NCBI RefSeq assembly: GCF_000970205.1
Contig: NZ_CP009512.1
Location: 2,852,001-2,916,000 of the forward strand
DNA: 64,000 nucleotides
Source of the DNA: Methanosarcina mazei S-6
GTDB taxonomy: Archaea; Halobacteriota; Methanosarcinia; Methanosarcinales; Methanosarcinaceae
Reading direction: 5' to 3'
This document shows, piece by piece, positions 15,446 to 53,105 of the stretch (the first letter of the stretch is position 1; each line of letters opens with the position of its first letter). The notes beneath the pieces are model-generated. The model was given only the letters and a program-made list of their open reading frames with translations. It had not been told where the DNA came from and made no database searches. The position numbers and the translations under genes were made by a program.

Positions 15446-16549
15446 TCACATTATATAATCATATAATCCATGGGCATATTTTGCGCACTCTTGGACACAC
15501 TGGGCAGTATAGTAAGCTACGTAGATGTCTGAGCCAAAATTTTGAGGGTCATTGTACATCTCGGTCCAGATATAGTCAAAATACTGGCTACTATGCTCAG
15601 CGTTGTCTTCAACCGCTTCTTCAGGATCAGTTACAGTTATTGATTGAGTATTATACTGCACATAATCCTTAAACTCATATCCTGAAGTCCACTGGCCGTT
15701 CACATAATTCTCATAGATGCTATGGTATGTGGTTTCATAAGAGTTCCAAATGTACTGACCACCCTGTTGGATTACTCCATCACTATGGAACGGGATACCC
15801 GGATCAATTAGATAATGACTTGAGTAACCAAATCTTTGATGTGCAGTAGACCAATATCCATTATTCACTGCAGAAATGGCTGAATCTGCAAACTCATTAC
15901 ACCTATCAGGTGCTCCTCCAATATGCAGTGACCCATCTTCATAGTGATTATAATATCTATAGAATGGTTCCGGGTCCATCACACCATTATCTGGGTCGTC
16001 AGCTGCATCTTTAGCATAATTCCTATAGGAAGACCCATCACAAGCATAGTAAGCATAGTCCTTATGTGGGGTAGAAAGCCACTTCACGGAGACAGGCTCA
16101 TAACTTTTCAAAGACTCATTGACTAGCATAGGACCAATCTCACTCATAAATTCATAATCATCTTTGGTGATCTAATCTGGATACCTATCCCAGAGATCTT
16201 TGATACCAACTTTATATCTGTCTTTCTCCTTCTCAGAAACATTAAAACCATCAATGTACTTGAAGGTGACAGACCTACTTTCCTCCTGAGTACCAGCGAA
16301 AGCAAGCGCTCTATAAGGCATTGCCTTAACGACGTCCGGTAAAGAAGCCTGTAGCTCCAGGTAATCTACAACTTCCTTCAGTCCTTCTTCACCGAGCTCA
16401 GCTTCCAAGGCCTCAATCTTTAACTGAGCAGCATCTTTAGTTAGGTTGGTTTGTTGTTCTTCGACGGAAGCCATTGCTGATGGTATCAACGCCATGCCAA
16501 CCAGCATTGTCAAAAGAATTAGCCCTATTGTTATTTTGTTCTTAACCAT
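15446..16549 (-). CDS. Secreted zinc-dependent phospholipase C-like protein with in-frame UAG (pyrrolysine candidate)
   Basis: Two open frames are separated by a single TAG at 16172-16174 and are in the same phase: 125 codons, the TAG as codon 126, then 241 codons to the end. The first part has a signal peptide (MVKNKITIG start, AMA cleavage site). The second has the zinc ligands of the PLC/S1-P1 nuclease fold: AADDPD, NHYEDG, then H-x3-D-x5-H in SHYLIDPGIPFH and H-x3-E in YHSIYE, spacings as in Bacillus cereus PLC. Neither part alone would be a secreted enzyme. GGAG seven bases before the ATG at 16549 sets the start. In Methanosarcina read-through with pyrrolysine is plausible. A recent nonsense mutation (for instance CAG to TAG) is the alternative. 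Confidence 0.75.
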
Positions 16550-36350: not shown

Positions 36351-36729
36351 AAATTTAGGAACAATTCCAGAAAATTTCATATTTTATATATCTTTGTTCC
36401 CGGAATGTTATTTTTTGCGAATATTTTGTTCCTCAGGTACTTTTATGCTCCGTTTAATTCCCCAGCTCTTTTCCAGAATATGTAATAGCTTAAGCTTCGA
36501 ATGGTGTACGGTTTAGAATTCAGTTCAGCCCCGATTGTGCCATATTGTAATTAGCTTGAAATTTTCAAGCGAATTAAAAAACGTGAAGATTCCTTGAATT
36601 TGGAGATTGACTATAATTTTCAAGTTGTTATAAAATAATGCCATAACCAAATATCGATGAGAAAACAAAATTAATAAAACATTGAATATTTAACGGAATA
36701 TATTATATATAGAATTTCAGCATTAGAAG
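36351..36729. other. Intergenic region
   Basis: A/T-rich, no gene. TATATTATATATAG at about 36699-36712 is a good archaeal TATA candidate, about 25-30 bases before the tandem hairpin element that follows. Confidence 0.5.
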
Positions 36730-36730
36730 A

Positions 36731-36975
36731 ATTGTAATTGTAAGAGAAGCTAATTAGACATGTTTGTAAAGGGAATATTTGGGGAAATATTCATCAAGGG
36801 GTTTCATCTGATTGAGGGCTCAGGGGATAAAGAGCTCTCAATCAATCACACCAGTTAGACAGCAAATCTTTATTGCCTTCTCTTACAATTGTGCAAAGAA
36901 TATGGGGAGTATTCTTTAAAGGGGGTTTCATCTGGTTGAGAGCCCGGGGATCATTAAGGGCTCTCAATCAATCAC
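36731..36975 (+). ncRNA. Tandem structured RNA element (two copies), candidate non-coding RNA
   Basis: Two copies share the same order. Hairpin A has a GGGG-containing loop: copy 1 stem 36773-36780/36785-36792, copy 2 stem 36895-36902/36910-36917. A linker AAGGGG(G)TTTCATCTG follows. Hairpin B has stems ATTGAGGGCTC/GAGCTCTCAAT (36811-36821/36832-36842) and TTGAGAGCCC/GGGCTCTCAA (36936-36945/36958-36967), loop GGGGAT..A, then TCAATCAC. The B stems differ between copies with pairing kept. A perfect 14-base inverted repeat (36736-36749/36877-36890) encloses copy 1. There is no ORF. A TATA box upstream and TTTTTT at 36998 bound a transcript of roughly 260-280 bases. Strand is inferred from these signals. 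Confidence 0.65.
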
Positions 36976-37010
36976 CAACATTCAGTACTTAAATAGCTTT
37001 TTTAAACAAT

Positions 37011-45290: not shown

Positions 45291-45368
45291 TGGTGCTCCG
45301 GCCGGGATTCGAACCCGAGTCTTCGGCTCGAAAGGCCGGAATGATTGGCCGGACTACACTACCGGAGC
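45291..45368 (-). tRNA. tRNA-Glu (UUC), copy 1
   Basis: On the minus strand the acceptor stem GCTCCGG/CCGGAGC pairs seven bases, the anticodon loop is CTTTCGA with anticodon TTC, the T loop is GGTTCGAATCC, and CCA is encoded. The gene is 75 bases plus CCA. A TATA-like TTTATATATT lies about 40 bases upstream (45405-45415). It is identical to the copy at 45921-45998. Confidence 0.97.
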
Positions 45369-45920: not shown

Positions 45921-45998
45921 TGGTGCTCCGGCCGGGATTCGAACCCGAGTCTTCGGCTCGAAAGGCCGGAATGATTGGCCGGACTACACTACCGGAGC
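45921..45998 (-). tRNA. tRNA-Glu (UUC), copy 2
   Basis: Sequence identical to copy 1, including the encoded CCA (plus-strand TGG at 45921-45923). Read on the minus strand it is the upstream gene of the pair. TATTTATACGA at about 46064-46074 may be its TATA box. Confidence 0.97.
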
Positions 45999-51968: not shown

Positions 51969-53105
51969 TCATGCGATCTTTTTACTTTTTCTTCCTCTCA
52001 CACTCTTCTCGTTTTCCGGGGTCTGGTTTGAAAGGGAATATTTTATCCCTGCAAGGGCAATGAGAATGGAAACAGCGATCGAATAAACGAAGTACTGCAG
52101 TGCAAGGGTAGGATCGCCTAACACTCCATCAGATATGGAAGCCGCTGCCAGGATATATGTGCTGGCTCCCCAGAAGAGCAGACCTGTTGCAATCACGAAG
52201 AGAGAAATTGAAATATTTCTATAAATGGGCCTGCCATCTGTTTTAAGATCGAAGATCTTTCCCATGTTAGCGAGCAGCAGAGCTACTGCATACCACCAGA
52301 TGGAGACATTGACGAAAACTGAGATAAGAGTAAGGGTACCGTGGTACCAGACCCCTTCTGCAGAATATAACTTCCAGACTTCCATAGCTCCATATACTGT
52401 TGCTACAAGACTGACAAGCAGGGCAGCAGTGTAGCTGATGAAAACCATCCTCTGCTCAAGGAAATCATCCCAGAGCTTTTCTTTTTCAAGGGCAACAATA
52501 TCATCAAGCCCGAAGCCCCTGTAAAGCATGTACAGCCCTACAGCCGCGAGAATTCCCACAATTGCCCCTTCGGGATAGCGGGCAAGCAGGAAGATGGCGT
52601 ATATAAGAAAAGCAAGCCCAAGGGGCACAAAGAAAGTCTGGGAGATTTTTGGGTCACTGAAAGCGTGTTTGAGGATATAATAAGTGCTTTCCAGGTTTGC
52701 ACTCTGCATAACGACAATCCGCTTCACGGAATCGATTTTCATTCTGGACTGAACTATAGGTACAAGAGTCTCGTCCTCAGCCCCGTCAGAAACAAAGACC
52801 GCTCTCTGCACCTCGTTCATCTGGAGATAGAGCTCGAGCTGTTCGGCAATTTTCTGGTCAGAGATTACTCCAACATTCTTGTCCCCTGCAAAAGAGACGA
52901 TCTCAGCATCAACTCCTTTTGCCCGAAGCTCATCAAGGATACGGATCCCTCCGAAAATAGTATTTGTATCCGAATCCTCGGGATCGGCAATTCCGAGTGC
53001 AACAGCTGCCTGGATATTTGCCTCCCTCCCTACAATAGGAGTTACCATTTTTGCTTTTTCGCCGAGATCATTATCCCTGTCTATGCATATAACCAGAGTC
53101 TGCAT
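51969..53105 (-). CDS. DUF373 family membrane protein
   Basis: The 378-residue protein has an N-terminal soluble domain (residues about 1-145) with LVICIDRDNDLGEKAKMVTPIVGR and VFVSDGAEDETLVPIVQSR, followed by about seven membrane helices. This is the architecture of the archaeal DUF373 family. The acidic motifs suggest a nucleotide- or metal-binding domain; no biochemical role is established. The basic C-terminus (RGRKSKKIA) faces the cytoplasm. Confidence 0.9.
   Translation of the reverse strand: MQTLVICIDRDNDLGEKAKMVTPIVGREANIQAAVALGIADPEDSDTNTIFGGIRILDELRAKGVDAEIVSFAGDKNVGVISDQKIAEQLELYLQMNEVQRAVFVSDGAEDETLVPIVQSRMKIDSVKRIVVMQSANLESTYYILKHAFSDPKISQTFFVPLGLAFLIYAIFLLARYPEGAIVGILAAVGLYMLYRGFGLDDIVALEKEKLWDDFLEQRMVFISYTAALLVSLVATVYGAMEVWKLYSAEGVWYHGTLTLISVFVNVSIWWYAVALLLANMGKIFDLKTDGRPIYRNISISLFVIATGLLFWGASTYILAAASISDGVLGDPTLALQYFVYSIAVSILIALAGIKYSLSNQTPENEKSVRGRKSKKIA

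Follow-up and report, generated by a model that had tools for sequence, protein, structure and literature searches.

A very probable structured RNA gene of Methanosarcina built of two modules, and its probable paralogue

Introduction

To our knowledge, few archaeal regulatory RNAs have structures backed by covariation or belong to recognised families. CsrB/RsmZ RNAs carry repeated G-rich loops and linkers in variable module number. In Methanosarcina mazei, a 2009 study reportedly yielded roughly 200 sRNA candidates, and sRNA162 is located beside MM2441. As far as the accessible parts of the reports go, sRNA154 has an NrpR operator (GGTA-N6-TACC) in its promoter (PMC3177094) and a leaderless 20-aa ORF at nt 4-66 (PMC11456600), the linker of sRNA162 masks a ribosome binding site (PMC3510493), and sRNA41 targets the ACDS mRNAs by pairing at their ribosome binding sites (PMC5867862).

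Here we describe S1, a two-unit RNA element at a single locus (Table 1) in a window of 64,000 nucleotides of M. mazei S-6, the whole stretch of DNA that was analysed. S1 is very probably a structured RNA gene, real and conserved, and has a probable paralogue, S2, elsewhere in the same genome.

Table 1. Features of S1 (window positions) and location of S2 (genome position)
Feature	Position	Strand	Remark
S1 promoter region; TATA box TTATATATA at about 36703-36711	36681..36730	+	Highest conservation of the locus
S1, proposed small RNA	36731..36985	+	Conservation island, covariation; start placed by TATA distance, 3' end near T-run
Outer stem P1, 5' strand (AATTGTAAGAGAAG)	36736..36749	+	13-pair helix in alignment
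Outer stem P1, 3' strand (CTTCTCTTACAATT)	36877..36890	+	Inverted repeat, alignment
Hairpin A1, loop with GGGG	36773..36792	+	Weak or replaced in part of Methanosarcina
Linker 1 GGGGUUUCAUCU	36798..36809	+	GGGGUUUCA near-invariant in 60 modules
Hairpin B1	36810..36843	+	12 pairs, 4 with double changes
Tail 1 AAUCACACC	36844..36852	+	
Hairpin A2	36898..36914	+	9 pairs in alignment, 2 with double changes
Linker 2 GGGGGUUUCAUCU	36921..36933	+	
Hairpin B2	36934..36969	+	12 pairs, 3 with double changes
Tail 2 AAUCACC	36970..36976	+	TYAYY in 48/60 module tails
T-run, possible terminator	36998..37003	+	
S2, two-hairpin RNA (L091, L176)	G000:C1:3796104-3796242		Found via weak full-length matches of the S1 model R1

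Results

Layout of S1

The sequence-only reading had described two tandem copies of a two-hairpin element, and the direct repeats (36798-36825/36922-36949, 86%; 36827-36849/36953-36975, 91%; spacing 124-126) bear this out; GGGGTTTCATCTG is found at both 36798 and 36922. The module copies span 36773-36852 and 36898-36976. In each, hairpin A, with GGGG in its loop, is followed by the linker GGGGGUUUCAYC (GGGG(G)UUUCAUCU), the 12-pair hairpin B and the tail AAUCACC (AAUCAC(A)CC). B1 (36810-36821/36832-36843) and B2 (36934-36945/36958-36969) do differ in three pairs with pairing kept in all, one having changed on both sides (U-A to C-G) and the other two through wobble. The 14-base inverted repeat said to enclose the first copy is exact, and it is the base of the stem enclosing module 1. 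The upstream TATA-like box and the downstream T-run lie where that reading had placed them; the T-run (CTTTTTTAA) or a close variant is present in L002-L009, and the remaining loci have other T-rich sequence. The element was also correctly called ORF-free, none of at least 60 aa being listed over S1. The fold of 36721-36990 has -84 kcal/mol (z -5.5), and 0/200 shuffles were equally good. Genes for an AMP-binding enzyme, a DUF2769 protein and a PD40/CARDB protein are the neighbours of S1.

Covariation and conservation

Covariation in Methanosarcina had been suggested as a test of the structured RNA; homologues were found and covariation is present. In alignment A2 (25 sequences, 49 pairs) 98.9% of the cells are paired and 10 pairs have double changes (shuffled mean 4.4). 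Double changes fill 39 cells vs 11.7 in shuffles, a test inflated by the kinship of the sequences, and 0-9 in slid controls. They are present in each of P1, B1, the A2 hairpin and B2; in P1, where 99.1% of the cells are paired, one pair has 10 of them. The alignment of 60 modules, with 89.1% of the cells paired and 32 double-changed cells vs 8.7 in shuffles, is by itself weaker evidence, since slid controls reached 26 (-1) and 23 (-3) cells. Hairpin A has 83.8% of its helix cells paired in the 60 modules and is not kept in copy 1 in part of Methanosarcina; module L019:2472, being without hairpin A, was left out of alignment A1.

Conservation rises sharply at 36681 and drops after 36980 (24/25 loci), with its peak in the promoter region (mean pairwise identity 0.90-0.91); a TAATTTATTATATATA-type box precedes the homologues in all three genera in which they were found (Methanosarcina and two sister genera designated g4 and g5). 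The linker has GGGG in 59/60 modules, UUCA in 60/60 and UUUCAY in 59/60, and its variation, like that of the tail, is largely C/U, either base still pairing with G. Of the repeated linker as originally delimited (TTTCATCTG), the core stood and the 'CTG' end proved not to be conserved. G-tracts also occur in the A-loop (59/60 modules) and B-loop (51/60), and the proposal that some partner binds at GGGG and at the linker is plausible, given how constant both are. No conserved ORF was found at the 25 loci, the longest plus-strand ORFs (15-70 codons) varying in place and length.

Upstream of the promoter, 36556-36680 shows moderate conservation (0.61-0.76, 24 loci); it may have a regulatory role or hold the terminator for the acyl-CoA synthetase gene.

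Distribution and module number

A covariance model built from the 60 modules, R1, matches 30/111 genomes of the family: 25/30 Methanosarcina (g1), 2/2 g4 and 3/4 g5, a count that leaves out G071 (partial hit, E 0.046) and short DNA matches in g7 and g14. Over the 237 genomes of the class, 30 match at E <= 0.01, all of them Methanosarcina, g4 or g5, and no match at threshold was found beyond these genera. A scan of database records returned 20 stretches, 3 of which are single matches in bacterial records and were taken as chance. The Methanosarcina genomes with no match (G089, G090, G092, G097 and G100) are 60-99% complete; in G097, at 99%, S1 looks truly absent.

S1 is present once in its own genome, and the DNA search matches other Methanosarcina. 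All 25 Methanosarcina loci have two modules, and G095 (L019) has two extra ones some 700 bp downstream, four in total. One module is found in g4, while g5 has three successive single-module genes about 650 bp apart (L028, L030), each preceded in L028 by its own TATTATATATA-type promoter/TATA box. The module is therefore probably the functional unit, and the two-module RNA of Methanosarcina looks like the product of a tandem duplication. The same AMP-binding acyl-CoA synthetase gene lies upstream of S1 at 22/25 Methanosarcina loci and at L028; among the other three, L002 and L006 have almost no upstream sequence and L007 no synthetase match. The genes on the downstream side vary among species.

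Comparison with known RNAs

As the first reading could name no family, so the search of Rfam 15 over the whole window gave 2 matches at gathering score, both tRNA and none over S1. With a relaxed threshold the matches at S1 stayed far below gathering scores, and the homologues L026 and L028 and the S2 locus L091 had no match. The operator GGTA-N6-TACC was not found upstream of S1 (36400-36760) or in S2 loci L091 and L176, nor was a 20-aa leaderless ORF near the likely 5' ends of S1 or S2; having neither, S1 and S2 were rejected as sRNA154. No description of S1 was found in the literature searched, which did not cover the 2009 M. mazei sRNA list. S1 belongs to a known kind of RNA and, within what was searched, is apparently undescribed as a family; S2 likewise is not known to be described.

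Elsewhere in the window, the tRNA genes at 45294-45368 and 45924-45998 (minus strand), 630 bp apart with identical Rfam scores, are probably a duplication. NrpR-operator-like GGTA-N6-TACC occurs at 52335-52348 and 62921-62934 only (0.38 expected in the window). The identical upstream and start sequence (aaacaggagaaaaATGGTTAAGAAC) of the ORFs at 16549 and 19112 (both minus strand) suggests a recent gene duplication.

A second RNA, S2

S2 is very conserved. By DNA search it was found in 38/111 genomes, five of these being short, weak matches outside the group, and in 4/4 g5 genomes; G085 has four matches. It resembles S1 in its GGGG-loop hairpin, in its GGGG...UCA linker (GGGGUUGAAUCAC) and in the hairpin that follows (GAUUGGGAGCC/GGCUCCCAAUU; GAUUGRGAGCC/GGCUCYCAAU), which shows compensatory changes. 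Unlike S1, it has one module, another first hairpin and another promoter palindrome (TATAGGTTATATACCTCTATA, at the likely promoter), and is wider in Methanosarcina (29/30). The S2 fold was derived from 17 of the 30 listed S2 sequences. In a joint alignment, A4, of 19/60 S1 modules and 15 of the 30 listed S2 sequences, all 374 cells of hairpin B pair and 5 pairs are double-changing, with 34 double-change cells vs 11.5 in shuffles and 0-2 when slid; the alignment of the linker is partly the aligner's choice. Since the GGGG...UCA linker and hairpin B are shared, with compensatory changes, S1 and S2 are probably paralogues. A joint S1+S2 model finds 36/237 class genomes at E <= 0.03, 35 of which have S1 and/or S2; the other genome, G029, has a weak and partial match, and no third branch was found by this model among the 237 genomes.

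Discussion

Three rival readings of S1 are improbable. Paired inverted repeats and a tandem duplication are also what a DNA-level repeat (a MITE, an insertion remnant or a palindromic binding site) might display; however, the sequence occupies a single place in its own genome, which rules out a dispersed repeat, it keeps the same upstream gene at 22/25 Methanosarcina loci, its promoter is conserved, and its loops and linkers are as conserved as its stems, so that we regard a DNA repeat as highly improbable. The syntenic acyl-CoA synthetase gene could make S1 a 3' element, or a cis-acting leader, of a neighbouring gene, but S1 lies about 430 bp past the synthetase stop, has its own promoter and is followed by different genes in different species, and a cis-acting role is very unlikely. 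That S1 encodes a small protein, as an mRNA or as an RNA of dual function, is as hard to credit as the DNA repeat: some M. mazei sRNAs have small ORFs, according to the consulted part of PMC11456600, but at S1 conservation tracks the stems and the ORFs are inconstant.

As to what S1 does, the proposal that we tentatively favour, and consider quite possible, is that it acts in trans, its linker and tail pairing with translation starts. The RNA, of about 250-270 nt, would be transcribed from its own conserved promoter, starting near 36731, and fold so that the hairpins expose the linker GGGGUUUCAYC and the tail AAUCACC as single strands. These could pair with the Shine-Dalgarno/start regions of mRNAs and block (or protect) them, the two modules offering two binding surfaces per molecule. 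The archaeal anti-Shine-Dalgarno sequence is GGAUCACCUCCU. Since the linker UUUCAYC and the tail AAUCACC resemble this sequence of the 16S rRNA 3' end, the simplest assumption is that they pair with ribosome binding sites, and the consulted parts of the reports on sRNA162 and sRNA154 provide a precedent for this (PMC3510493, PMC5867862).

Three target leads were followed, none of them convincing. RTGAAACCCC, sought in the whole genome, occurs at 12 places outside S1, one of them at a plausible start codon (L118) and the others mostly within genes or with no long ORF; the sites were rejected as targets, their number being by estimate about that given by chance. The Topo VI B start was rejected too, its 9-nt match occurring, among the 14/28 loci with a readable start, only in the own genome. 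The ACDS and glnA starts showed no clear sign of special pairing with the S1 linkers: duplex energies at the ACDS starts fall mostly within the range of 50 window genes, with slight exceptions, and the strongest (-18.7, where the lowest values among the window genes are -18.4 with linker 2 and -15.2 with linker 1) lies inside a coding region and uses the non-conserved end of the linker.

A linker near-invariant in three genera could equally point to a protein partner, and the main rival to mRNA pairing is a protein-titrating RNA in the manner of CsrB/RsmZ, in which repeated G-rich linkers and loops would sequester an RNA-binding protein and the number of modules would tune the capacity. The G-tracts of linkers and loops, the invariance of the linker across genera, the GGGG and UCA common to S2, and the variable module number (a tandem pair, four modules in G095, three genes of one module each in g5) all fit; against this, 9/60 modules have no G-tract in the B-loop, CsrA (PF02599) does not rise above cut-off in the own genome, and no candidate protein partner was found. 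We consider titration rather unlikely. Its extension, in which S1 and S2 would be two branches of an archaeal modular RNA family titrating a G-tract-binding regulatory protein, is doubtful; if true, it would make them a functional counterpart of CsrB/RsmZ that does without CsrA and changes its module number by tandem duplication.

S1 offers about 60 natural modules, a probable paralogue and hosts for which genetic systems exist. Direct experiments could therefore find its partner, be it mRNAs or a protein, and the duplication of the module could be studied as an archaeal way to tune RNA regulation.

Set beside the described systems, S1 is like sRNA154 in being a conserved Methanosarcina sRNA with stem-loops, so far as the accessible parts of PMC3177094 and PMC11456600 describe the latter. 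In our proposal it would act, as sRNA162 does according to the consulted part of PMC3510493, through a single-stranded linker, whereas the two modules are a feature of S1. With CsrB/RsmZ it shares repeated G-rich loops and linkers in variable module number; unlike those RNAs, it resides, in M. mazei S-6, in a genome where the CsrA partner was not found.
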